DNA of 20,350 nt from a bacterium (GTDB lineage Bacteria > T1Sed10-126). The notes under the pieces were generated by a model, which was not told the DNA's origin, ran no database searches, and saw only the letters and a program-made list of their open reading frames with translations. This document shows, in pieces, positions 4 to 20,350 of the stretch (the stretch's first letter is position 1; every line of letters begins with the position of its first letter). Where the stretch lies: positions 1 through 20,350 of the forward strand of contig PWOD01000164.1 of assembly GCA_003557545.1 (NCBI GenBank), read 5' to 3'. A program made the position numbers and the translations under genes.

Positions 4-3000
4 TTAACGAATTATTGTGAGAGTATTGGAACTACTCCTACCGCCGCCACTCACCCGGTAGATATAACTGCCGGAAGCAACTGACGGCCACCAGCTGGCC
101 AACCGATCACTATCCACAACAAGGGATTCCCTGACAATTCTGCGCCCCTGTAGATTAAACAGATCAAGCTGCACCAGATCTCCATAATCCTGGGGTAAAT
201 AAAAGCTTACCGGACCGCCCAGATCTCCACGGTAAGGATTGGGATATGAATAAACTCTCTCCGTTATCAATACCGGGGCCGTATCAGGATCATCCAGATC
301 ATCCAGAATTTGCTCGCCGACCGACCAGTCATGATAGGCTGCACCGGTTATATACCAGACCGGAGAGTTGCCGGTTACTTCAGCGGCAAGGAAGGGATAG
401 GCAGCATTTTTCAGCTGATCGGTCTCCTCAATATTCCAGCCGGCTGCCCGATAGGTCTCAATATCACGCATTCCTCCGGGAGTTCTTGCAGTCCCGCCAA
501 CACTTGCTGCCTGCAGGGTTTGCTGACTGTCCCAGAAACTATCCTCAACCACTCCTCCACCCACCGGACTATGTCCGACCAGACCACCCTTGACTCGTGC
601 TCCTTTGACCTCACCGCTCGCATAGGCCCGGCGAATCAGCCCGGCATTATAAGCGACAAGCCCACCGGTCTGAAAGCCTTCACCCCGAACATCGACCGTC
701 GAGTAAAGATCGACCAGCTCTCCACCGGAGAGATTTTCGCCGACAAACCCGCCCGTACGAAACTCCCCACTTACAGTCCCCCGGGCGGTGGAGTTAACTA
801 TACGTCCACTGTTTCCACCGGCCAGCCCGCCGGCATATAATCCACTGCTAACTAACTCCACATCGGCCTGCAACCGCTCAAGTTGACCGCCAATAACCCG
901 ACCGACCAGACCGCCACTGTAGATTCCATCCCCCATAACTGTCCCGTCAACACGACAATCTGTTATGGTCCCTTCAGATATCTGCCCAACCAGCAAGCCA
1001 ACATTATTAGATCCACTAACCTCTGCATCAAGCAGCTCCAGGGAAGTTATCTCCCCGGACTCGCCAACAAAACCAAACAACCCGGCTGCCCCGCTGCCCG
1101 GCCGCTCAACTCTCAATCCACTCAGGCTCTCTCCCCGACCGTCAAACCCTCCTGTGAATGGTGTCACAGCCGTACCCACAGGTTTCCAGCCCAGACCACC
1201 ATTGGCAGTCGAACCGGCCAGTCCATCATATCCCGGACTGGTTTGATCAAGCGATTGCATCAGTTTGTACTTGGCTGCCGGTTCACGTCTCAGTTGATCC
1301 AGCTGATACCAGTTATTCACCAGATATGGTTCGACCAAACTGCCCGCACCACCGGCAAAATCCAGCACATCAATATTCACACTATCAGAGGTATCAAAGC
1401 TTCTGACCAGCAGATTTATCCCATCATCCTCACGGGCCGTCAGATAACTTAATTCAACAACAGTTCCACTACGTCCCGGTAATCCTACCTGGGCTGTTGC
1501 AACAACCTGCTGATCAACCACCAGCTCTATCGTCTGAATGTCCGGATAATCTCCAGTATTATCGATCCCGGCGATAACCTGCACCTCCTGCTGTTTTACT
1601 ACCCGCAGCAGACTGGAGCTTTGATCGATTTGCACAATAAATTTCGGGTCCAGATAAACCCGCAGCGGCCAGGAATCATAACTATCCTCTGATTCCACCC
1701 ACAAAACTGCCCCATCATCCTTACGGGCCGTCAGATAGTCAAACTCAACTGTCTGTTCTGTATGGCCATCAAGGGTCAGCTGATGAGACCCCTGGTGGGT
1801 TCCTTCTACCAGAAAGTTGATCTCCTGCGTCCCCGGAAGATCACCCGTATTCTCCACCGTTACAACAATCACAGCAGTATCCCCCTGGTCAACCGTATCC
1901 GAACCATCCTGGTTGACAACCTGGTCGACTTGAATTTCAAAATAAGGAAATGTAAGAACAGTCAGCTCAACTGCATCATAAGTTCCCTCCCAACCAAGCT
2001 GCATTTCAGCCCCAGTCTCTTCGGCCAGTGCCTGCTGATAAAGAAAACTCACAGGAACTGTCTCGCCAACAGGTAAAATAAGATCGCTTTTGTCAATAAA
2101 AACACCGTCAAAATAGAACTCTATAGTTTGACCGTATTTAACCGGTTCAAGGCTGGAAACCAGGGCAGTAATCGAAACATCCTCACCTTCAACAACCTCG
2201 GTGTCAGTAGTTAGTTGATCAATTTTTAGTTGAAACTGCGGCTGGTCAAAAACCACAAACTGTTGGCTAAAAATATCGTTATCGGTACTGACTGAAAAAT
2301 CAACAAAATCAGTGGCAGGTGGGGGATTATATTTAAACTTTAAAAACTCCGTTTCGCCCCCCGACAACAGCAGAGGGCGGCTATCAAACAACTGACCGTC
2401 AACTTCAAACTGTACCAGCTGACTGTAGCTCACATTATTGACGTTAGATACCTCAACCCCGAGATAAAGTTCGATCCCTTCGATCCCGGCCAACAATGTC
2501 TCATCCTCTTTTAGATCAATATAAAACTCAGCCGGGCGCAGGAGGGACAAACTGCGAAATTCCGGGACAGATTGTCTATCTAAACTTTCAAAATTAATCT
2601 GAATCTGAAATTCAGAATGAGAGGCGGACCAGGGTAAAGTTAAATCTTCCTGCTCTGTAAGATTGATTGCCTGAAATTTTTCTTCAGACGGCTGGCCCGG
2701 ACTACCTATGACATCCAACGAGATAATCTGATCCCTTGTCGAATAATCCATGGCCACAAGTTCAGGCTTGCCGGCCAGCATTGAAATCACATTGCTTCGC
2801 CAGTAACCAGTTTCAGATAACGGATTAACATCAACAGCTAAAGAGTGTAATTGAGGATTAATAGTTTCATCCTCAGTTCTAAAAAGCTGACGAATCCAGA
2901 GGTATTGATTAGATAGATCATCCCCCGGCGCAAGCCCGGGAAGGGGCGCGCCATTGACGGCTGGCTGCCAGTTGGTTGGTGGAGTATTATTATCAGTGTT

Positions 3001-4143
3001 AACAGCTGTAAAAATATCAATCCCTGTCCCGGACGGTTCAGTCGATTGCCATTCAATCAGAGAACTAGTCAGATCTTGAATTTCTCCCAGTGAAACCGGC
3101 TGGGAAATCCGTTCGCCTGGAGGGGGTGAACCGATTATTTCAACCCGTCCATGACCGGTCCTGACGCCAGACTGATTATGCTGGTTAGTCCCGTCATTAA
3201 ACGACCCGCCGCCGCCTTTCTGAGCACCACCGGAATAACCACCACCTCCACCACCGGAGCGACATCCCCCCATTGCACCGCCACCAAACCCACCCGGCCC
3301 GGCCGAACAGGTGGAAGTACCACCCTGGCCCCCCTGCCGGAATCCCTGAGTCTTCGAACCCCAGCTCAAAGCTGACCCTGAGGCCCCCGAATAAAAACCG
3401 GCCCCAGCTCCCCCATGAGCATTATTGTCATTACCACCCTGCCCATTAGTTCCACGGGTAGCCCAATTGGTTCCATGTGGTGCACCACCATCTGGTCCAG
3501 TCAACCCCGGGCTTCCGTTCCCCGGGTTGGTACTATTGCTGGCCCCACCGCCTCCTCCCGCCACCAACAAGGGGTCAGCCGTTGTATGTGTGCTACCGGT
3601 GGCAACAAAGGTCCCTCCGCCGCCTCCGGTCATCTGACCCTGGTGGCCAACCAGGATTAAAATATTTTCACCCTCAGTCAACTGAAAATCACCTGACATC
3701 ATCGCCCCCAGACCACCGGTTCCACCTGACATCCCTCCCTGGGCACCCCAGGCCGTTATCCGATAAGTACCGGTGGAGGGAACCACCCAGTTTTGAATTG
3801 TTCCATTATGACCGGTACCGGTATTGGTAAAAATATATTCAGTGGGCGGTGTGGTTTGCAGCTGAAGATTATCATTAACAACCCCCAGCCGCTCAGTTGA
3901 ATAGCTATTATTCCAGTCATCTGCAGTATTTTCACTAAATTCTACAAATGGATGTAGATTCCACTGAAGCCTATCGCCGTCGATGCTAAAATCTTCACCC
4001 GCAGCAAATTCAGACCAATCGGATTGGCTGGTCCAGCTAACAAGTTCATTGGCATTGACCGGGGACAACCCCAAAAAACAAACCACTGTTAAAACCAGCA
4101 AATAGACCGAGACTATCAACAATTTTCCTACAGTTTTGACCAT
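4..4143 (-). CDS. Large secreted mosaic surface protein (Gly-rich, CARDB-like, GLUG, FlgD/T9SS-like C-terminus)
   Basis: Encodes 1379 residues, complete, with its TAA stop at positions 4-6. Residues 1-31 form a signal peptide with a hydrophobic core and likely cleavage after SPVNA. From residue 103 (YIFTNTGTG) to about 336 (GRVEII) lies a glycine-rich domain of the ALK/LTK type, with LVAGGGGGAS and FYSGASGSAL motifs. Residues of about 540-930 hold CARDB-like adhesion repeats that recur with DNTGD and YLTARxDDG. About 930-1205 is a GLUG region, introduced by PYLVNNWYQLDQL and FTGGFDGRGESLSGL and carrying repeated GGLVG/GGLAG units. Residues 1299-1379 (YSYPNPYRGD, LFNLQGRRI, SGSYIYRV) resemble a FlgD Ig-like or T9SS type A sorting domain. 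The inferred role is a cell-surface or released adhesin or scaffold; no catalytic motif was seen. An AGGGAG ribosome site lies about 12 nt before the ATG. It stands alone on its strand, divergent from the next operon. Confidence 0.85.
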   Translation of the reverse strand: MVKTVGKLLIVSVYLLVLTVVCFLGLSPVNANELVSWTSQSDWSEFAAGEDFSIDGDRLQWNLHPFVEFSENTADDWNNSYSTERLGVVNDNLQLQTTPPTEYIFTNTGTGHNGTIQNWVVPSTGTYRITAWGAQGGMSGGTGGLGAMMSGDFQLTEGENILILVGHQGQMTGGGGGTFVATGSTHTTADPLLVAGGGGGASNSTNPGNGSPGLTGPDGGAPHGTNWATRGTNGQGGNDNNAHGGAGAGFYSGASGSALSWGSKTQGFRQGGQGGTSTCSAGPGGFGGGAMGGCRSGGGGGGYSGGAQKGGGGSFNDGTNQHNQSGVRTGHGRVEIIGSPPPGERISQPVSLGEIQDLTSSLIEWQSTEPSGTGIDIFTAVNTDNNTPPTNWQPAVNGAPLPGLAPGDDLSNQYLWIRQLFRTEDETINPQLHSLAVDVNPLSETGYWRSNVISMLAGKPELVAMDYSTRDQIISLDVIGSPGQPSEEKFQAINLTEQEDLTLPWSASHSEFQIQINFESLDRQSVPEFRSLSLLRPAEFYIDLKEDETLLAGIEGIELYLGVEVSNVNNVSYSQLVQFEVDGQLFDSRPLLLSGGETEFLKFKYNPPPATDFVDFSVSTDNDIFSQQFVVFDQPQFQLKIDQLTTDTEVVEGEDVSITALVSSLEPVKYGQTIEFYFDGVFIDKSDLILPVGETVPVSFLYQQALAEETGAEMQLGWEGTYDAVELTVLTFPYFEIQVDQVVNQDGSDTVDQGDTAVIVVTVENTGDLPGTQEINFLVEGTHQGSHQLTLDGHTEQTVEFDYLTARKDDGAVLWVESEDSYDSWPLRVYLDPKFIVQIDQSSSLLRVVKQQEVQVIAGIDNTGDYPDIQTIELVVDQQVVATAQVGLPGRSGTVVELSYLTAREDDGINLLVRSFDTSDSVNIDVLDFAGGAGSLVEPYLVNNWYQLDQLRREPAAKYKLMQSLDQTSPGYDGLAGSTANGGLGWKPVGTAVTPFTGGFDGRGESLSGLRVERPGSGAAGLFGFVGESGEITSLELLDAEVSGSNNVGLLVGQISEGTITDCRVDGTVMGDGIYSGGLVGRVIGGQLERLQADVELVSSGLYAGGLAGGNSGRIVNSTARGTVSGEFRTGGFVGENLSGGELVDLYSTVDVRGEGFQTGGLVAYNAGLIRRAYASGEVKGARVKGGLVGHSPVGGGVVEDSFWDSQQTLQAASVGGTARTPGGMRDIETYRAAGWNIEETDQLKNAAYPFLAAEVTGNSPVWYITGAAYHDWSVGEQILDDLDDPDTAPVLITERVYSYPNPYRGDLGGPVSFYLPQDYGDLVQLDLFNLQGRRIVRESLVVDSDRLASWWPSVASGSYIYRVSGGGRSSSNTLTIIR
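1421..1737. repeat. Near-identical 26-bp DNA repeat in successive CARDB-like modules
   Basis: Positions 1421-1446 and 1712-1737 match at 25 of 26 bases, with a period of about 291 bp (97 codons, so in frame). Both copies encode the end of a module (YLTAREDDG and YLTARKDDG). The DNA identity suggests fairly recent duplication or gene conversion of one module inside the secreted protein. Confidence 0.75.
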
Positions 4144-6939: not shown

Positions 6940-6974
6940 TCATAGTTGAATTATTGAAAGGAGTGTTACACTCG

Positions 6975-8501
6975 ATGGCTACTGCTTACAAGATCCAAAA
7001 AGACACCTATCACGACTCTGTAACCCTGATGTTAATAGCAAATGACCTCAAACAGCTCGATCGAATTGAAGAAGCAATGGTAGGGATGGGAACTGACTAT
7101 AACCTTGATAGTCTCAAACGGCTGAAGATCAACCTTCCCGAACTTAATAAATTAACTCCCAGCGACCTGATTATTGCGGTCAAAGGAGAAACAGAAGATG
7201 TCGCGGAGCAGGCGGTTGAGATGGCAGAAAACAAACTCACAGAACAGACACAGATCTCCAGCAATCAGGGTGACTATGCCCCGCCAACTCAACGCGGTGC
7301 TGCAAGCATACTTCCAGGAGCCAATCTGGTATTAATCTCAATTCCGGGGGAATACGCTGCCGACGAAGCGGACAAAGCACTTGAGGCCAATCGCCACGTG
7401 ATGCTTTTTTCCGACAATGTCAGTCTGGAAGAGGAACTGCGCTTAAAAAATAAAGCAGTCGAAAGAGAGCTGCTGATGATGGGCCCCGATTGTGGAACTT
7501 CGATCATTAACGGCGTTCCCCTGGCCTTCGCCAACGCAATCAGAAGAGGACCGATTGGGCTGGTTGCAGCTTCCGGAACCGGTTTACAGGAATGCAGCAG
7601 TTTAATCCATCAACTCGGGGGAGGAATCAGCCAGGCAATCGGAGTCGGAGGTCGAGACCTGTCCGAAAAAATTGCTGGCAAAATGACGATCCAGGCCGCT
7701 CAGGCACTGGGCAAAGATCCCCAGACCGAGCTAATCACCCTGATATCCAAGCCGCCGGACGAAGCAGTCTTAGACCGCTTATTTAAAGAACTCAAAAAAT
7801 TGGACAAGCCTGTGGTGATCTATTTTATCGGAGCCGACCCCGAGCTGATCGAAAAAAATGGTTTTACTGCAGCCACTGATCTTGAGGATGCAGCGATTAA
7901 ATCCTGTCAGAAAGCAGGAATTGGAAAACTTACACCACTGATTGCCCAAAAAACGTTAGAGGAATACGCCCGAAAAGCCGGACCGATTAAGGGATACCTG
8001 CGGGGACTCTACTCAGGAGGAACCCTCTGTGATGAGGCCCAGCGAATTCTGATAAAAGATTTACAACCGATTTTTTCTAACACGCCGGTGGAGGGATGCC
8101 AACAACTTGAGGATCCTTATCTGAGCCAGGCCCACACAATTATTGATCTGGGCGAAGATGAATTTACCCGGGGACGGGCCCATCCAATGATCGATCCAAC
8201 TCTACGCAAAGAACGTCTTATTCAGGAGATGAGTGATCCGGAGGTCGGACTGATACTGCTCGACCTGGTGCTTGGTTATGGCGCCCATCCAGATATGGCT
8301 TCAGAACTTCAGGAGGCAATTATAGAGGGCCGTAAACAGCTGCCCAAACCTCCTGCCGTGGCCGTTTCCATCTGCGGAACCGAAGAGGATCCCCAGGATT
8401 ATCAGCAGCAGCGTAAAATTCTGGAGAAAAGTGATGTTTACGTTTTTCCCTCACATGTCTCCATGGTAAAATTTACCCAACTATGTTTGAATGAGGATTG
8501 A
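6975..8501 (+). CDS. fdrA: FdrA/AllF-like protein, C-terminally shortened (acyl-CoA synthetase-fold carbamoyltransferase subunit)
   Basis: Encodes 508 residues from the ATG at 6975, chosen because AAAGGAG (6957-6963) lies 11 bp upstream; the TTG at 6954 has no ribosome site. The fold is that of the succinyl-CoA synthetase alpha superfamily. Visible motifs are GPDCGTS at 170-176, the following GLVAASGTGLQE, the VGGRDLS loop, a second-domain start GYLRGLYSGGTLCDEA, and GRAHPMIDPTLR at 400-411. The last is almost identical to the GRPHPMIDPTLR that I recall in E. coli FdrA. E. coli FdrA (AllF) is reported to act with YlbE (AllG) and YlbF (AllH) as oxamate carbamoyltransferase, which splits oxalurate to oxamate and carbamoyl phosphate during anaerobic allantoin use. 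This copy stops about 50 residues early, and the missing tail is encoded by the next gene. FdrA family membership is firm; oxalurate as substrate is inference. Confidence 0.9.
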   Translation: MATAYKIQKDTYHDSVTLMLIANDLKQLDRIEEAMVGMGTDYNLDSLKRLKINLPELNKLTPSDLIIAVKGETEDVAEQAVEMAENKLTEQTQISSNQGDYAPPTQRGAASILPGANLVLISIPGEYAADEADKALEANRHVMLFSDNVSLEEELRLKNKAVERELLMMGPDCGTSIINGVPLAFANAIRRGPIGLVAASGTGLQECSSLIHQLGGGISQAIGVGGRDLSEKIAGKMTIQAAQALGKDPQTELITLISKPPDEAVLDRLFKELKKLDKPVVIYFIGADPELIEKNGFTAATDLEDAAIKSCQKAGIGKLTPLIAQKTLEEYARKAGPIKGYLRGLYSGGTLCDEAQRILIKDLQPIFSNTPVEGCQQLEDPYLSQAHTIIDLGEDEFTRGRAHPMIDPTLRKERLIQEMSDPEVGLILLDLVLGYGAHPDMASELQEAIIEGRKQLPKPPAVAVSICGTEEDPQDYQQQRKILEKSDVYVFPSHVSMVKFTQLCLNED

Positions 8502-8506
8502 TAAAA

Positions 8507-8680
8507 ATGTCTGATTTGAACGGACTTTTCGAACAGAAGATCCAGGTGATCAACCTGGGGCTTCCCGCTTTTTACAAAGATCTACAGCACCAGGAAATAC
8601 CGGTGGTTCAGGTTGACTGGAATCCCCCGGCGCGAGGTAACAAAAAGCTCCAATCATTGCTTGGCAAACTGAAAAAATAA
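8507..8680 (+). CDS. Stand-alone FdrA C-terminal domain protein (57 residues)
   Basis: The ATG at 8507 is preferred because GAGGA (8493-8497) lies 9 bp upstream, inside the end of fdrA. A TTG at 8498 would overlap the fdrA stop but has no spaced ribosome site. The protein reads INLGLPAFYKDLQ, then VVQVDWNPPARGNKKLQSLL. This matches the C-terminal tail of full-length E. coli FdrA as I recall it (VINIGLRSFALEL, then GGNKKLARLLERL). FdrA at 508 plus this at 57 gives 565 residues, against 555 for E. coli FdrA. It is therefore a split-off FdrA domain, probably a small subunit of the same complex. Because it has its own ribosome site and a clean start, it does not look like a frameshift or sequencing error. 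Similar short proteins are annotated elsewhere as fdrA domain proteins. Confidence 0.85.
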   Translation: MSDLNGLFEQKIQVINLGLPAFYKDLQHQEIPVVQVDWNPPARGNKKLQSLLGKLKK

Positions 8681-8724
8681 TTTTTTTACTGAATTAAACT
8701 GTTATTCCACCAGGAGGAGATAGA

Positions 8725-9975
8725 ATGGAAATTGATTTAGAGAGAGCAAACCAGCAGGCGATTGAAAAGATCCAGGGGGGCAACCCGATTTTAAAGGGAA
8801 TAGGAATAGCCGGGGAGGTTGTCCCCGGGATGGATGAAAAACTGATTTTACACGCTGGTCCACCGGTTGACTGGGAAAATATGAGTGGTCCAACCCGGGG
8901 AGCTGTTATTGGAGCACTGATCTATGAAGGTCTAGCAGCCGGAGCAACTGAAGCCGAAGAGCTGGCCGCATCCGGCGAGATCAAGTTTGAACCCTGGCAT
9001 GAGCACAACGGGGTCGGTCCGATGGCGGGAGTAGCAACCAGCAGCATGCCGGTCTGGATCGTAGAAAATACTCAGTTTAATACTGAAGCCTACTGTACTT
9101 TTAATGAGGGTTTAGGTAAAGTCCTCCGCTACGGTGCCTATGCCCCGGAAGTAATTGACCATCTTAAATGGATGGAAACAGAACTGGCACCGATCCTTAA
9201 GGAGACTCTGGCCAATCTTGACAAACCTCTCAATCTCAAGAGCCTGATTGCAGAAGCGCTGGAGATGGGTGATGAGACCCACAATCGTAATCGCGCCGCC
9301 ACCTCCCTGCTCTATCGTAAACTAACCCCGGCACTGCTGGAAACCTCATTCAAAACCGAGCAGAAAAAACAGGTGCTGGAGTTTATAGATTCCAACGATC
9401 ATTTTTTCCTCAACCTCAGCATGCCAGCCGCAAAAGCCATGATTATGGCGGCAGAAAATATCGATGGATGTTCAATTGTAACCACCGTGGCCCGGAACGG
9501 AACGGAAACAGGTATCAGAGTTTCCGGTCTCGGCGATCGCTGGTTCACAGCACCGGCTCCGGTGCCGGAGGGGCTGCTGTTCTCCGGCTACTCAAAGGAG
9601 GACAGCTGTGCCGATATTGGTGACAGCACAATCACTGAAACCGTAGGGCTGGGAGCCTTTTCAATGGCTGCCTCCCCGGCGATTGTCAAATTTGTTGGGG
9701 GCTCGGTCGAGGATGCTTTCAACTTCACCCGTAAAATGTACGAAATCTGCGATGCCGAGTCAGAAAACTTCAAGGTGGCCCCGCTTGATTTCCGGGGTGC
9801 CCCCACCGGGATCAACCTATTAAAAATCTGTGAACTGGGTATAACCCCCCAGATTAACACCGGGATAGCTCACAAAGATCCCGGCATAGGACAGATCGGT
9901 GCCGGTCTCGTCCAGGCACCGATGGAATGTTTTGAGAAGGCCCTGGAAGCTTTTGTTGAAAAATACGCTGAATAA
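8725..9975 (+). CDS. ylbE: YlbE/AllG-like DUF1116 protein (putative carbamoyltransferase subunit)
   Basis: Encodes 416 residues, against 419 for E. coli YlbE. An AGGAGG ribosome site sits 6-8 bp before the ATG. Conserved DUF1116 blocks occur in order: LHAGPP (from about residue 42), GPTRGAVIGALIYEGLA, HNGVGPMAGV, NEGLGKVLRYGAY, MGDETHNRN, FFLNLSM, VARNGTETGIRVSGLGDRWF, DIGDSTITETVGLGAF, and near the end INTGIAHKDPGIGQIGAG. All match the E. coli protein closely. Together with FdrA it is expected to form the core of a carbamoyl-transfer enzyme acting in the cytoplasm. The third E. coli component, YlbF (DUF2877), is not in this window. It follows the FdrA tail gene by 44 bp and precedes the cyclase gene by 37 bp in one operon. 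Confidence 0.92.
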   Translation: MEIDLERANQQAIEKIQGGNPILKGIGIAGEVVPGMDEKLILHAGPPVDWENMSGPTRGAVIGALIYEGLAAGATEAEELAASGEIKFEPWHEHNGVGPMAGVATSSMPVWIVENTQFNTEAYCTFNEGLGKVLRYGAYAPEVIDHLKWMETELAPILKETLANLDKPLNLKSLIAEALEMGDETHNRNRAATSLLYRKLTPALLETSFKTEQKKQVLEFIDSNDHFFLNLSMPAAKAMIMAAENIDGCSIVTTVARNGTETGIRVSGLGDRWFTAPAPVPEGLLFSGYSKEDSCADIGDSTITETVGLGAFSMAASPAIVKFVGGSVEDAFNFTRKMYEICDAESENFKVAPLDFRGAPTGINLLKICELGITPQINTGIAHKDPGIGQIGAGLVQAPMECFEKALEAFVEKYAE

Positions 9976-10012
9976 ACTGCAACATCCATAATCTTTTAAG
10001 GAGGAATTTCAA

Positions 10013-10792
10013 ATGGTAACAATGTATGATTTAACTCAGGATCTAAGTATTCACACCCCACCCTGGCCCAGTTACATGCCACTGCAGTTGCAATATTTCA
10101 AACGGATTGCCGGTGCTCACCAGGGGCAGGGTGCCAACGGTCAGATCATCAAGACCAGCATGCATGTCGGCACCCATATAGATGGGGAGAAACATTTTGA
10201 TGCCAAAGGACGGACAATTGGCCAGGTCCCCCTGGAAGAGTTCTGCGGCGAAGGTGTAGTTGTTGATATTTCTGATGAAGTTGAGGATTTTTCACTATAT
10301 ACCCCGGAGATGCTGGAAGCAAAGGCGGAAATTAAAAAGGGTGATATCCTGATCATAAATACCGGCTACCACAGGTATGCCTGGGATCAGGAAGAATGTG
10401 ATGAAGTACGCTACATGGTAAAACATCCGGGTCCGGACCCAGAATTTCACAAATGGGCCAAGGAGAAAGAGTTCGCCTGGATCGGAGTCGACTGTGGCAG
10501 CGCCGACCATCCGATGAATACCATCCTCCGGGACTGGCATCCCCGCCTGTTCAAAAAAGCTGAGGCCAAACTGCAGGCCGATTACGGAAAAAGCTGGGAG
10601 GAGATGTTTCCTTACGAAGAATATTACCAGGTGATGCATCTTGATCTATTTCCAGAAGGTTTGATCCACGCTGAAAATCTTGGTGGTGCGATTGATGAAA
10701 TCAGTAATCAACGCAAATGGATTGGACTATTTCCCTGGAAAGGAATTGAAATGGAGTCTTCAATCTGTCGGATTGTTGCCTTCGACTTTTAA
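10013..10792 (+). CDS. Cyclase-family metal-dependent hydrolase (kynurenine formamidase/isatin hydrolase-like)
   Basis: Encodes 259 residues. AAGGAGG (9998-10004) is 8 bp before the ATG at 10013; an ATG three codons later is less well spaced. The family's metal-binding motif HxGTHxDxxxH is complete at residues 51-61 (HVGTHIDGEKH), and VDCGSADHP in the second half matches the conserved strand of the fold. Known members hydrolyse amide or cyclic amide bonds in substrates such as N-formylkynurenine and isatin, using Zn or Mn. A segment of about 30 residues after LRDWHPRLF is an insertion relative to short formamidases and resembles longer uncharacterised members. As the last gene of the fdrA-ylbE operon it probably makes or consumes the carbamoyl or oxamate-type intermediate. 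The exact substrate cannot be read from sequence. Confidence 0.85.
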   Translation: MVTMYDLTQDLSIHTPPWPSYMPLQLQYFKRIAGAHQGQGANGQIIKTSMHVGTHIDGEKHFDAKGRTIGQVPLEEFCGEGVVVDISDEVEDFSLYTPEMLEAKAEIKKGDILIINTGYHRYAWDQEECDEVRYMVKHPGPDPEFHKWAKEKEFAWIGVDCGSADHPMNTILRDWHPRLFKKAEAKLQADYGKSWEEMFPYEEYYQVMHLDLFPEGLIHAENLGGAIDEISNQRKWIGLFPWKGIEMESSICRIVAFDF

Positions 10793-10812
10793 TTTCTGTA
10801 AAGATTTATTTT

Positions 10813-10862
10813 CCCGGTTCGGCTTCCCGGTGCGGGGTTAACCCCGCACCGGAAGTACCGGG
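10813..10862 (+). terminator. Strong GC-rich palindrome at the end of the fdrA operon, probable terminator
   Basis: The core 10828-10851 is a perfect 12-bp inverted repeat with no spacer (CGGTGCGGGGTT and its complement). It is extended by CTTC/GAAG (10823-10826 with 10852-10855) and by CCCGGT/ACCGGG (10813-10818 with 10857-10862), giving about 22 paired bases. It starts 20 bp after the cyclase stop. The tail is ATTTCTCC rather than a clean U-tract, so it may act as a transcript 3' stabiliser, or as a binding site in front of the next gene. Confidence 0.6.
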
Positions 10863-10928
10863 ATTTCTCCCCTGCCAGCTGTTGTCCCCGCCAGTTTTCT
10901 AAAAAAGATCTCAACTAATTTTTTTCTC

Positions 10929-11021: not shown

Positions 11022-12653
11022 ATGAAACTTAACAAAATTATGCTGTGCTGTTTCACCGGGCTCGTCATCATTGTACTGCTGGCGACTCCCGGCCTGGCCG
11101 GTACGTTTCGAACAGTTGGTGCTCGGGCGGACGGTATGGGAGGAAGCGGAGTTGCAGCGACAGCGGACGAACATGCCGGTCTATGGAATCCTGCAATGCA
11201 AGCCCTGAAACCGGGCTTCGCCGGGGGATTACAGATTGGAATAGAGGCCCAGATAACTAATGACTTTCTCGATGAGATCCAGGATCTGCAAAATTTTGAA
11301 GATGATTTTGATAAGCTGGATAATATTATCGACAGCGGCTTTTCCGACACTACGGCCTTTGCCCATTTTAACCGCCTAATAAAAGAACTACAGGATGTTA
11401 ACCAACCGGGCCAGGGACTACTAATCGACATCACCGGAGGACTTAACTTTGCCTACGACAACTGGTCGATCTCGGCTAATAACTTCAGTTCCCTATCGGG
11501 ACATACAACTTTTCAACTGGAAGATTTAATGATCGGAGATATTACCGGTGACGGCCAGGCGATCGGCCGGGAATTTATCGCCGGTGATCCCAATTCCACA
11601 ACGATAACCGATCGCACCCCCACCGAATATTCCGAAGCAACGGTTAAACTGATTGAACAACGGCTGAAACAATCCCTCGACGGCGATGATTTTGCCACAG
11701 TTTTTGGATTTGACACGGGAACCACTGCCAGTTCTGCAGCACGACATATAGCCTGGCGGCTGGAAAAAGGTGGTTTTGCCGGCGATACGGTAACCGATCA
11801 GATTCTCAACAGTTCAAGCCGGCTACTAATTCCCGGCATCGTGACAATCGCCCGGGGCGACACAGACAGTTTCGATACCGAAAACCAGCAGCTCATTTTA
11901 CAGGGAGCAATGATCAATGAGATTGCCCTGAACTACGCCCATCCAGAACCGGTTGTCGAACTATTTGGCAGTCCTATATATCTCGGTGGAACACTAAACT
12001 ATCTACAGGGAGAGCTGGCGAGAGTTGAATATCTGGTTTTTGAAGATAAGGATATTGGTGACGAGATAAGCGACAGCTTAGACGAAGGTCCCCGGAAAAG
12101 CTCGGCTTTCAGTCTTGATCTGGGTGCCGTCTGGGACGGTGCAAAAGAGCATGGTTTGCGAGCAGGTTTAAGCGGACGATATCTGAACAATCCCAGTTTT
12201 AATTTTCCCGAAATAAACGGTCAAACTAAAAAGCTCAGATTGAAATCACAATGGCGAGCCGGTTTTTCCGGATATCCGCTTGAATGGATCTACCGGTTAA
12301 CAGATACCGATGAACAACGGTTTGGTAGAGACTGGTGGCAAATCTCTGTCGACTATGACCTGACCAGAAATCGGACTCTGCTGCCCGACTATCACACCCA
12401 GTATCTGGCGATCGGCAATGAATTCAACATTTTCAACCGGCCCTGGATAAATTTTGCCCTGCGAGCAGGTTTACGTACCAATCGAGCTGAAAGCCGGGAA
12501 GGTAAGCTCTATACAGTGGGTCTGGGAATTCAGCTGGTGCGGGTCAATATCGACCTGAGCGGAACTATCAGCGATCGTAAAACACGGGATGAAGATGGCA
12601 ATAAATTTCCCACGGTTGCCGGCGGTTCATTAAACCTCTCGATGCGATTTTAA
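11022..12653 (+). CDS. Outer-membrane beta-barrel protein, TraF_2/PorV/FadL-like
   Basis: Encodes 543 residues with a clear signal peptide (KLNKIMLCCFTGLVIIVLLA) and likely cleavage after PGLAG or GLA. The mature start, ARADGMGGSGVAATADEHAGLWNPA, is the N-terminal signature shared by TraF_2 (PF13729), UPF0164, PorV and FadL-like barrels. The C-terminal half alternates polar and hydrophobic residues as barrel strands do (RAGLSGRYLN, FALRAGLRTN, YTVGLGIQLV) and ends with an aromatic residue (LNLSMRF). A GGGAG site precedes the ATG. Its presence implies an outer membrane. Function is unknown: hydrophobic-compound import and surface-protein secretion are both possible. The TraF name comes from database convention and does not imply conjugation. 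Confidence 0.75.
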   Translation: MKLNKIMLCCFTGLVIIVLLATPGLAGTFRTVGARADGMGGSGVAATADEHAGLWNPAMQALKPGFAGGLQIGIEAQITNDFLDEIQDLQNFEDDFDKLDNIIDSGFSDTTAFAHFNRLIKELQDVNQPGQGLLIDITGGLNFAYDNWSISANNFSSLSGHTTFQLEDLMIGDITGDGQAIGREFIAGDPNSTTITDRTPTEYSEATVKLIEQRLKQSLDGDDFATVFGFDTGTTASSAARHIAWRLEKGGFAGDTVTDQILNSSSRLLIPGIVTIARGDTDSFDTENQQLILQGAMINEIALNYAHPEPVVELFGSPIYLGGTLNYLQGELARVEYLVFEDKDIGDEISDSLDEGPRKSSAFSLDLGAVWDGAKEHGLRAGLSGRYLNNPSFNFPEINGQTKKLRLKSQWRAGFSGYPLEWIYRLTDTDEQRFGRDWWQISVDYDLTRNRTLLPDYHTQYLAIGNEFNIFNRPWINFALRAGLRTNRAESREGKLYTVGLGIQLVRVNIDLSGTISDRKTRDEDGNKFPTVAGGSLNLSMRF

Positions 12654-17424: not shown

Positions 17425-17814
17425 ATGAGCAGTTCAGCCCGGCCGACAAAAGCAAACGAACGGGGCCAGGTCATGTTAGAATACAGCCTGTTCATGGTGT
17501 TGATTGCTTTCATGGTCCTGTCTATTTTTATTATATTGGACCCTCAAATCAGGGATTTCTTTGCCCGGTCGATCGGTGAAGAGACGGTTGAAACTGCGCG
17601 GGAAGAGTTGGAACGTTCAATCCAGGAAACAGCCGTAGAGTATCAAACCTACCAGACCGGCGTTCGTTATGAGGAGGGTGATGTAGTTAAAAATCCTGAT
17701 GACGACAAACTCTACGTTGCCATCCTGGAACATACTGCCTATGACGGAGAAAATCCAGAGTTCCCATTTGACCGCAGCCCCCCACACCCGGATTTTTGGA
17801 AATTAAAAGAATAG
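17425..17814 (+). CDS. Pilin-like protein with class III signal and C-terminal CBM5/12-like domain
   Basis: Encodes 129 residues. Residues 12-38 read ERGQVMLEYSLFMVLIAFMV and onward: a basic leader, cleavage expected between Gly14 and Gln15, Glu at +5 (Glu19) and a hydrophobic helix of about 20 residues. This is the layout of Flp/TadE pilins and archaeal class III signal proteins. A charged helical stretch (about 50-72) follows. Residues 73-129 resemble a CBM5/12 chitin-binding-like module: VRYEEGDVV, then LYVAI, then GENPEF, then FWKLKE, with aromatics Tyr82, Tyr97 and Trp125 at the expected places. It is probably membrane-anchored or assembled and exposes a small carbohydrate-binding-like head. 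The ribosome site is weak. No assembly ATPase or prepilin peptidase is nearby. Confidence 0.65.
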   Translation: MSSSARPTKANERGQVMLEYSLFMVLIAFMVLSIFIILDPQIRDFFARSIGEETVETAREELERSIQETAVEYQTYQTGVRYEEGDVVKNPDDDKLYVAILEHTAYDGENPEFPFDRSPPHPDFWKLKE

Positions 17815-17827
17815 CAAACTCTTTTTG

Positions 17828-18136
17828 TTATAAAATTTTTCGGGCTGTATCAGCCTTACCTCGCAGTTCTTCAAACAGGGACTCAACATCCCGCCAGGCA
17901 ATCTCGGTCGAACGGAGTGAATCTTCAAGCTCGGCGGCTGTGACGTGAAATACTATCAACCCAAAACTCCCGGCTGCGCCCTTGATACCATGGGCGATCT
18001 TCCGGGCTGCCTCAGATTCACGGGCTTTAATATGCTCACCCAACTCCTTCATGTCATCATCTAAATTATCGAAAAATTCGGGTAATAGAGGCCGCAAGGT
18101 TTCATCTACCTCAGAAAAATAAAAAAAATAATCCAT
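17828..18136 (-). CDS. Stand-alone Hpt (histidine phosphotransfer) protein
   Basis: Encodes 102 residues, a four-helix Hpt domain and nothing else. The phosphorylatable histidine is His49 in AHGIKGAAGSFG, an excellent match to the Hpt consensus AHxLKGxAxxxG. A strong GGGAGGA site is 7-9 bp before the ATG. It is encoded 41 bp downstream of the hybrid kinase and so most likely takes phosphate from that kinase's C-terminal receiver and passes it to a regulator outside this window. It is acidic. It converges with the pilin-like gene, only 13 bp separating the two stops. Confidence 0.92.
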   Translation of the reverse strand: MDYFFYFSEVDETLRPLLPEFFDNLDDDMKELGEHIKARESEAARKIAHGIKGAAGSFGLIVFHVTAAELEDSLRSTEIAWRDVESLFEELRGKADTARKIL

Positions 18137-18177
18137 CCCATAATTCCTCCCTGCTGCGAATAATGATCAAAATCTCA

Positions 18178-20350
18178 TCAACTATTTAACTGCTGAACAA
18201 GCATTTTAATTAATTGCTGTTTTTTCAGTGGTTTTGTTAAATAATCATCAACTCCAGCTTCCATCGCCTGCTTGCGAGCCTCACCATAGGAATGGGCACT
18301 GAGAGCCACTACGGGAAGGCTGTCCTGACGATTCTGTTGTTCCCATCGACGAAACCGGCGCACCGCCTCGTAACCATCAATCACCGGCATCTCGAGATCC
18401 ATTAAGACCAAATCAAACTGGTCCTGTTTAAGTTTTTTAAGCGCCTCACGGCCATTCTCTACAACAATCAACTCCAGCGCAAATTCTGCCAGAAAATGTT
18501 TAATTAACAGCTGATTGTTGCGGTTATCCTCGGCCAGCAGAATCCGCCCCTCCAGAGTATTCTCCTCAGATACCATCTTCTCCAGTGCAGTGGAACCAGA
18601 CTCTTTTAACTGAAGTTCCGGGATCAGCCGAACCAGCACCTCAACCAGCCCCTGCCAGGTAAGCGGTTTATGAAAACATTCAGTGCAATACCCAGCAGTT
18701 TGACAACTTTTCTGGGTAGGTTCACTTAGCATACAAACAGCCCGTTTCTCCAGGATCTTGACAAGCTCTGGGGAGGTTTTCAGATCCTCACTATCAATTA
18801 AACTATAATCATACAAAACTGCTGCATAGGTACCAGTTTGTAAAGCCTCTTTAAACTCCGACCAGCTGGTGACAACCTGACAGGACAGATTAAGATGATC
18901 TAAATAATTCCCCACAATTTTACAAAATTCAGCGGAGCTGGCAGCCAGCAAAATCGGTTCGGCGACAAACTCCTCATCCTCGGAAAACAGTCGATAAAGA
19001 TCCCCTACGGTCGACACCGGTTGTGATTCAGGGGATGATGGAAAATCCAATTTAACCTTAAACCGACTTCCTTTACCCAATTGACTTTCCAGGTCAATCG
19101 TCCCCTCCATCTGTTCAACTAAACGCTTACAGATACTGAGGCCCAAGCCAGTTCCCTGGTAACGACGGCTGTGTGATTCATCAACCTGATGGAAAATTTC
19201 AAAAACTCGCTTTTGCTCCCGAGGGTCTATACCAATACCGGTATCTTCAACCATCCACTCCAGCACTGGATTGGCAGAGTCAGACCCGGCTGCTTCCAAC
19301 GACAATTTTATTTCACCGCAATCAGTAAACTTTATGGCATTATTCAGCAGGTTGACCAGCACCTGGCGGACCCGCCGCGGATCACCGATAACCCGTAAAG
19401 GAGTTCGAGGATCGACATAAACAATCAATTCAACCCCTTTATCAGCAGCCTGGCCCAAAAACAACTCGGCCACTTCTTCTGTTAATAATCCAGGCGAAAA
19501 ACTTTCTTCCACCAGAGAAAACTGGCCGACTTCCTGCTGAGAAATATCCAGAATATCGTTAAGCAAGGTCAACAACATCTCACTGGAACTTTCAAAAACA
19601 TTAACAAACTTCTGCTGAGCCAGATCTAACTTGGTTTCCTTCAGAAGCTCCACAAACCCCATAATGGCATTCAGCGGTGTTTTTATCTCATGGGAAACAT
19701 TGGCCAGAAAACGGGATTTTGCCTGACTCGCCTCGGCCAGCTTTTCACGGGTCTTAACTAACTCCGTTATATCAACCGAAACCCCGAGAAATTGCTGTTT
19801 GTTAACAGCCGAAAGATTCAGCTTATAAGCAAAGAATAAAATTACAATCTCCTCACCATCCTTGCGCACCCCGGGCAACTCTCCCCTCCAGACCCCCTGC
19901 GACTTGAAACTTTCCAAAATCTCTAACTCTTTTTCTTTCACAGTATCCGGATGTAAAATGGCCACCGGACGTCCTAATACCTCCAAGCTATTATAGCCGT
20001 AAATACGCTCGGCTCCGGGGCTAAACTCACGGATCAACAGCTCCTGACTATCAGATGATTTTTCAGTGATTACAAAACCCACATCTTTACTGGCGTTAAA
20101 AATTCCTTCCAGCTTCTGCCGCTGCTGTTTTTCAGCAGTAATATCAAGCGAACTTCCAATAATCTCCCTGACCTCTCCTCCGATAGTAACCGGATTTAAC
20201 CGAGTCAACCAGGTCCGCACGCCCTCCGGCAGATCTAACTTTTCTTCATAAGTCACCGGCGCACCGGCCTTCAAACAACTTTGATAGTTTTTCATGATAG
20301 ATTTACCCAACTTCGACCCAAGTGCTTCCACCGGAGTTTTATTCCAGATA
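18178..20350 (-). CDS. Hybrid sensor histidine kinase, 5' end beyond the window
   Basis: The frame is open to the window edge with no good start (an in-frame GTG at 20331 lies inside a PAS domain), so the N-terminus is missing. Numbering from that GTG, the order is: end of one PAS domain (to about 70, ITAEKQQ), a full PAS (about 75-190), HisKA with His214 (NVSHEIKTPLN), a HATPase with NNAIKFT, VEDTGIGI and GTGLGLSI boxes, a degenerate receiver (about 455-575) and a true receiver with Asp645 (LVLMDLEMPVIDG) and LTKP. The first receiver keeps an Asp (VLYDYSLID) and a Lys (HKP) but lacks the acidic pair at its start (ILLAASS against ILLAEDN). No transmembrane segment is seen in the part present. 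It feeds phosphate to the adjacent Hpt protein. Confidence 0.9.
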   Translation of the reverse strand, partial: IWNKTPVEALGSKLGKSIMKNYQSCLKAGAPVTYEEKLDLPEGVRTWLTRLNPVTIGGEVREIIGSSLDITAEKQQRQKLEGIFNASKDVGFVITEKSSDSQELLIREFSPGAERIYGYNSLEVLGRPVAILHPDTVKEKELEILESFKSQGVWRGELPGVRKDGEEIVILFFAYKLNLSAVNKQQFLGVSVDITELVKTREKLAEASQAKSRFLANVSHEIKTPLNAIMGFVELLKETKLDLAQQKFVNVFESSSEMLLTLLNDILDISQQEVGQFSLVEESFSPGLLTEEVAELFLGQAADKGVELIVYVDPRTPLRVIGDPRRVRQVLVNLLNNAIKFTDCGEIKLSLEAAGSDSANPVLEWMVEDTGIGIDPREQKRVFEIFHQVDESHSRRYQGTGLGLSICKRLVEQMEGTIDLESQLGKGSRFKVKLDFPSSPESQPVSTVGDLYRLFSEDEEFVAEPILLAASSAEFCKIVGNYLDHLNLSCQVVTSWSEFKEALQTGTYAAVLYDYSLIDSEDLKTSPELVKILEKRAVCMLSEPTQKSCQTAGYCTECFHKPLTWQGLVEVLVRLIPELQLKESGSTALEKMVSEENTLEGRILLAEDNRNNQLLIKHFLAEFALELIVVENGREALKKLKQDQFDLVLMDLEMPVIDGYEAVRRFRRWEQQNRQDSLPVVALSAHSYGEARKQAMEAGVDDYLTKPLKKQQLIKMLVQQLNS

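Follow-up and report, generated by a model that had tools for sequence, protein, structure and literature searches.

What would a carbamoyltransferase operon of the oxamate type do when it carries genes for only two of the three enzyme subunits and closes with a cyclase-family hydrolase? This question is raised by the 20,350-base contig C164 (PWOD01000164.1) of the bacterial draft genome G000 (GCA_003557545.1; 2.15 Mb, 239 contigs, 92% complete); the window analyzed here is this whole contig. The FdrA (AllF) and AllG subunits of the AllFGH oxamic transcarbamylase family are both encoded in the window, followed by the hydrolase (hereafter the cyclase); AllH (DUF2877) and carbamate kinase were found neither in the operon nor anywhere on the contig. 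Across many phyla these genes recur as a module, AllH-FdrA-AllG-cyclase, usually with a molybdenum (Mo) hydroxylase and often with a uracil-type permease. Protein families, linkage, signatures and co-occurrence, from which all the substrates and reactions are assigned here, tip the balance slightly towards a module that would oxidize uracil or thymine via barbiturate, with ring opening by the cyclase and phosphorolysis by AllFGH. The less specific claim, that it serves a nucleobase or cyclic-ureide pathway in which a three-subunit AllFGH is fed by the cyclase, can be made with good confidence. The features of the locus are as follows:

6975..8501, plus strand: FdrA/AllF, 508 amino acids, without the C-terminal tail; CoA-binding and CoA-ligase-like AllFGH subunit (NF004760, PF00549, PF02629)
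8507..8680, plus strand: separate 57-residue open reading frame (ORF) equivalent to the last ~48 residues of Escherichia coli FdrA (NF004760 positions 508-555)
8725..9975, plus strand: AllG (DUF1116), carbamoyltransferase subunit (PF06545; 43% identity to E. coli YlbE)
10013..10792, plus strand: cyclase-family metallohydrolase, candidate ring-opening cyclic-amide hydrolase (PF04199; metal-site residues; model resembling isatin hydrolase)
10812..10863, plus strand: strong hairpin past the operon, terminator-like, without an adjoining long T run (minimum free energy -42.8 kcal/mol, z -4.7 against shuffled sequences)

FdrA, its split tail, AllG and the cyclase form an operon that closes at the hairpin, and the ORFs, coordinates and families of the FdrA/YlbE-type operon described in an initial annotation of this DNA are confirmed. 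Each of the three main genes (FdrA, AllG and cyclase) is preceded by a good Shine-Dalgarno sequence. The ATG of FdrA at 6975 is preceded by GAAAGGAG, and a TTG at 6954 is likewise open. FdrA scores 475 bits against NF004760 (cut-off 433) and is 39% identical to its E. coli counterpart; AllG scores 317 bits against PF06545. The 57-residue ORF aligns with positions 508-555 of the 555-residue E. coli FdrA model (47% identity over 47 residues), and FdrA is therefore split in the window genome. In other loci the tail may stand alone as an ORF, extend the N terminus of AllG, as seen in the alignment, or bridge FdrA and AllG as one protein; FdrA-AllG is a single ORF in four loci: L045, L046 (1,039 residues), L069 and L077. 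This change of partners by the tail, together with the full FdrA-AllG fusion, suggests that FdrA and AllG touch through the tail.

A search of the whole genome recovered both of the genes missing from the operon. AllH lies on contig C52 (PF11392, 66-67 bits; cut-off 25), directly after XdhB-, 2Fe-2S- and XdhA-like genes of a Mo hydroxylase, and carbamate kinase lies on contig C147 (387 bits; cut-off 358), outside the AllFGH operon. Thus, the lack of DUF2877 and carbamate kinase noted in the initial annotation holds for the operon and the contig but not for the genome. The C52 AllH retains the GxGPGLTPxxDD and GHSSG motifs common to E. coli YlbF, which rules out a degenerate copy. Nor does a contig end account for the missing gene: the operon lies inside its contig with unrelated genes on both sides, and the C52 AllH precedes an unrelated flavoprotein gene. 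A uracil-permease-like gene is found on a further contig, C175. The only sampled member of the family of the window's genome, ‘bacterium isolate T1Sed10_126’ (sister genome G001, in which L031 and L019 are one locus), has the order XdhB, 2Fe-2S, XdhA, AllH, phage-type integrase, FdrA, tail, AllG, cyclase, with AllH 2.4 kb upstream of FdrA. Since G001 carries these parts in one locus, the scattered parts of the window genome look like pieces of a formerly contiguous cluster. The integrase gene between AllH and FdrA in G001 (L019:5583-6668) may relate to this break-up. Activity of E. coli AllFGH depends on all three genes (PMC11326118), and the C52 AllH is therefore expected to be required in the window system.

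The C147 carbamate kinase has a neighborhood of its own (L018, 13689-19102), in which it and a threonine-synthase-like pyridoxal phosphate enzyme are flanked by three carbamoyltransferase paralogs. One of these is an ornithine-type enzyme over the cut-off, and two are nearest to N-acetylornithine carbamoyltransferase. An identity as YgeW-like enzymes was rejected, as the latter two score far under the YgeW cut-off (NCBIfam) and the third is the ornithine carbamoyltransferase. Of 23 module genomes, 22 encode carbamate kinase (two counted from split matches), as against 23 of 85 AllG-negative genomes (p 1e-9). Such an excess would be expected of a module that delivers carbamoyl phosphate, although anaerobic living could also play a part.

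We collected about 120 AllG loci, 80 by scanning genomes of bacteria and archaea and the others from a wide sampling, mostly of one genome per family. Neighborhood counts were taken from the 72 loci with full flanks (58 with the cyclase and 14 lacking it); these loci share descent, and the p values of the comparison are indicative only. A Mo hydroxylase is encoded nearby in 47/58 cyclase-bearing versus 3/14 cyclase-lacking loci (p 5e-5), and carbamate kinase in 3/58 versus 6/14 (p 0.001). Typical operon orders are XdhB-2Fe2S-XdhA-NAT-AllH-FdrA-AllG-Cyc and GNAT-thiolase-DUF35-AllH-FdrA-AllG-Cyc-XdhB-2Fe2S-XdhA-NAT. Variable extras include a type III CoA-transferase, an amidase, a nitrilase-like hydrolase, a PucR regulator, a cytosine-deaminase-like amidohydrolase, an MmdA-like carboxyltransferase with a Na+-pump decarboxylase subunit, and a thiolase/zinc-ribbon/GNAT-like trio. 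The GNAT-like member belongs to a family of about 240 residues (e.g., L020:11751-12473, and many other loci) with a weak Pfam match at best, and occurs mostly with the thiolase and the DUF35-type zinc-ribbon protein. In the cluster of Clostridium bowmanii (L100), which looks decayed, the AllH and cyclase fragments are short and FdrA was not detected; AllG, the permease and the Mo hydroxylase are intact.

The cyclase is a regular member of this module. AllG occurs in 40 of 386 sampled genomes (about 10%); in that sample, 20 of the 29 fully flanked AllG loci (nearly 70%) carry the cyclase. It lies within 150 base pairs of AllG in 65/84 loci and on the same strand in 83/84. A profile of the cyclase subfamily, run at a threshold of E<=1e-40 on 98 sampled genomes (13 AllG-positive and 85 AllG-negative), matched 11 genomes, comprising 11/13 of the AllG-positive and 0/85 of the AllG-negative ones (p 7e-13). 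Moreover, some genomes scored as cyclase-negative at the locus carry the cyclase elsewhere (G072, G076, G083). Proximity, shared strand and co-occurrence rule out a chance neighbor, and the survey establishes the cyclase as a recurrent partner of AllG and FdrA. It is part of the ordinary module and no substitute for AllH or carbamate kinase, contrary to the initial proposal of a hydrolase standing in their place. In the AllG tree, the window AllG is nested among cyclase-associated AllGs; outside these lie E. coli AllG and several further rows without the cyclase, on long branches whose exact position is uncertain.

The cyclase itself scores 121 bits against PF04199 and contains the HxxxHxDxxxH metal site, with H51, H55, D57, H61, H209 and E221 invariant among 33 relatives. 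Its predicted structure (predicted local distance difference test score of 85, lower around residues 20-70, which carry the metal motif) matches isatin hydrolase with a Z of 19.5 and kynurenine formamidase with a Z of 17.4-17.8. E221, twelve residues after H209, is a Glu as in KynB. In isatin hydrolase the residue (position 219 of LaIHA) is Gln or Ala (the GLQC/GLAS signature; PMC6117287), and the window protein lacks this signature. Other than the cyclase, no constant ring-opening hydrolase was found among the surveyed clusters, and the cyclase therefore remains the ring-opening candidate.

Further clues to the substrate come from the permeases and the Mo hydroxylase. Most cluster permeases have Glu in the NAT signature (TTYSENTG), as do E. 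coli UraA and RutG; XanQ and UacT have Gln at this residue, the role of which has been described (PMC5972032, PMC3405029). In the permease tree, for which E. coli YbbY is too divergent to be placed, a fully supported clade unites 20 of 25 cyclase-linked permeases with UraA and RutG. The two Gln-type permeases come from cyclase-lacking, kinase-bearing clusters and group with XanQ and UacT. The Mo hydroxylase has Ala at the position of the active-site Glu of xanthine dehydrogenase (bovine Glu802) in all 44 readable cyclase-bearing loci and likewise on C52; L149, the sole readable cyclase-lacking locus of the family sample, has Glu. Among solved structures it is closest to 4-hydroxybenzoyl-CoA reductase and CO dehydrogenase, with xanthine dehydrogenase behind these, and its top NCBIfam model is XdhA, below the cut-off. 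The Ala and the solved relatives of other types do not support an identity as xanthine dehydrogenase. The CoA-transferase found in clusters is of the dicarboxylate type. AllD, the source of oxalurate in E. coli, was over the cut-off in none of 23 module genomes (undetected in 22, including the 92%-complete window genome, with one weak match under the cut-off), and the E. coli control was positive. Context, permease type, non-detection of AllD and kinship of the hydrolase to isatin hydrolase therefore point away from the E. coli allantoin route and towards a cyclic nucleobase. They also lend support to an idea of the initial annotation, namely a variant system acting on some other cyclic amide, in which the hydrolase would supply the intermediate.

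On the proposed pathway, the uracil-type permease would import uracil or thymine, and the XdhABC-like Mo hydroxylase, beside AllH on C52 here, would hydroxylate it to barbiturate or 5-methylbarbiturate. The cyclase would open the barbiturate ring to N-carbamoylmalonamate (ureidomalonate), which AllF with its tail, AllG and AllH would jointly phosphorolyze to malonamate and carbamoyl phosphate. AllFGH could do so because N-carbamoylmalonamate is one CH2 apart from oxalurate (N-carbamoyloxamate). Carbamate kinase, usually encoded elsewhere, would use carbamoyl phosphate to form ATP. A set of enzymes varying by organism, namely an amidase or nitrilase-like hydrolase, the type III CoA-transferase and a Na+-pumping decarboxylase, would dispose of malonamate or malonate: malonate freed by amidases would be activated by the CoA-transferase and then lose CO2 through the MmdA-like decarboxylase. 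With thymine, the methyl homologs of these intermediates would arise.

Several observations weigh against this scheme. The cyclase shares E221 with KynB and lacks the Gln or Ala of isatin hydrolase, and may instead hydrolyze linear amides, a meaning of this Glu that published work leaves open (PMC6117287). For most clusters no permease gene lies within reach, five of the cluster permeases are placed apart from the UraA clade, the parts of the module lie on separate contigs in the window genome, and the thiolase/DUF35/GNAT-like trio of many clusters has no role in the uracil scheme. We know of no assayed enzyme from this AllFGH clade or cyclase subfamily. PucR regulators are usually tied to purines, and CoA:oxalate CoA-transferase is the best-scoring match for the type III CoA-transferase, as would befit a route through oxalate. 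The last two points favor an oxalurate route with another entry, in which the hydrolase would make oxalurate from a cyclic compound such as parabanate or from a product of purine or hydantoin breakdown and AllFGH would convert it to oxamate and carbamoyl phosphate; xanthine dehydrogenase-like proteins are also often purine-linked, and oxalurate is the only proven AllFGH substrate (PMC11326118). We nevertheless regard this route as unlikely, given the mostly uracil-type permeases, the Mo hydroxylase without the xanthine dehydrogenase Glu, the lack of a detectable AllD in 22/23 genomes, and MmdA-like and Na+-pump decarboxylases that fit malonyl or methylmalonyl units and not oxalate. The five divergent permeases and the trio would fit another N-heterocycle or cyclic ureide, such as a hydantoin, an orotate-like compound or a modified base, undergoing like hydroxylation, ring opening and phosphorolysis, and Mo hydroxylases of this type take many heterocycles. 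However, AllFGH chemistry requires an N-carbamoyl amide, which ring-opened barbiturate is, and most cluster permeases resemble UraA and RutG, making such a substrate rather improbable.

Two simpler accounts fare worse. With AllH and carbamate kinase both encoded on other contigs, the E. coli allantoin pathway could be taken to be spread here over several loci, as the initial annotation had held would follow from finding the two elsewhere and co-regulated with the operon. It does not follow, because the oxalurate-forming AllD went undetected both here and in 21 of the 22 further module genomes; the module has the cyclase and Mo hydroxylase as constant partners, and the window AllG sits among cyclase-linked AllGs, apart from the long branch of the E. 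coli protein. This account is thus very unlikely. The initial annotation had also raised a functional two-subunit carbamoyltransferase of FdrA and AllG. The operon does lack AllH, and three Riflebacteria, among the nearest by AllG, likewise have an FdrA-AllG-cyclase unit with AllH placed apart. However, AllH was found in all three Riflebacteria genomes tested, is present with both conserved motifs in the window genome, shares the locus in the nearest relative, and lies <=9 kb from AllG in 52/58 cyclase-bearing loci with full flanks; with the need for all three genes in E. coli (PMC11326118), a two-subunit enzyme is scarcely credible.

Uracil or thymine oxidation by this module would combine features of several known systems. 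With E. coli AllFGH and AllK of the allantoin pathway it has in common the three subunit families (39-43% identity for AllF and AllG), the AllH motifs and a kinase in the genome. E. coli has AllK in the operon, AllD as the oxalurate source and no cyclase, whereas the window system has the cyclase and Mo hydroxylase as constant partners, the kinase in trans, no detected AllD, and the FdrA tail as a separate ORF. The oxidative pyrimidine pathway of Rhodococcus comprises uracil/thymine dehydrogenase, barbiturase and ureidomalonase, and the proposed pathway would share its intermediates barbiturate and ureidomalonate and its sequence of oxidation followed by ring opening. The Rhodococcus barbiturase is of the PF09663 family, for which a search run without a positive control gave no match in the 23 module genomes; moreover, the ureidomalonate step would here be phosphorolytic, yielding carbamoyl phosphate, rather than a hydrolysis yielding urea. 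The cyclase shares its fold (Z 19.5 and 17.8) and HxxxHxDxxxH motif with isatin hydrolase and bacterial kynurenine formamidase of PF04199; it differs in its identity of only about 20%, the KynB-like Glu at 221 and the constant genomic partnership with AllFG. Finally, the reductive uric acid pathway of E. coli and C. difficile, with its phosphorolytic YgeW, offers an anaerobic parallel in which N-carbamoyl phosphorolysis yields carbamoyl phosphate and then ATP, with a different carbamoyltransferase superfamily, substrate and hydrolases (PMC12507026).

The remainder of the window encodes proteins of other kinds. On the minus strand, 4-4143 encodes a secreted-looking protein of 1,379 residues with glycine-rich, CARDB and GLUG repeats; its C-terminal end is of the YPNPY type and resembles a sorting domain. 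Directly past the operon, 11022-12653 encodes a TraF_2/PorV-like protein, probably of the outer membrane. A 129-residue protein at 17425-17814 has a Flp-pilin-like N-terminal segment (GQVMLEYSLFMVLIAFMVLSIF) and no Pfam match, and at 17828-20349 the minus strand encodes a hybrid PAS/histidine kinase/receiver protein and then a separate Hpt-domain protein.

The open-access literature, to which our search was confined to the exclusion of subscription journals, yielded no description of the cyclase/Mo-hydroxylase module; the only related accounts found there describe AllFGHK for oxalurate (PMC11326118), also in nitrifiers (PMC12625717). The subunits belong to known families, and the pathway would be new if confirmed. 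We put at just short of even the chance that the module constitutes an undescribed, oxygen-independent and energy-conserving oxidative pyrimidine pathway in many phyla, in which the cyclase would be a new kind of barbiturase and AllFGH would phosphorolyze N-carbamoylmalonamate to carbamoyl phosphate. Cultured carriers, e.g., Anaerocolumna aminovalerica, Alkaliphilus transvaalensis and Anaerotruncus colihominis, make the proposal directly testable. Going by the family names now in use (oxamate carbamoyltransferase subunit, putative cyclase), allantoin catabolism would be credited to many bacteria in which the genes probably serve another end. If the proposal is true, these organisms would possess a pyrimidine pathway that makes ATP without oxygen and a new family of ring-opening enzymes, and a carbamoyltransferase family assigned only in 2024 would gain a second physiological substrate.

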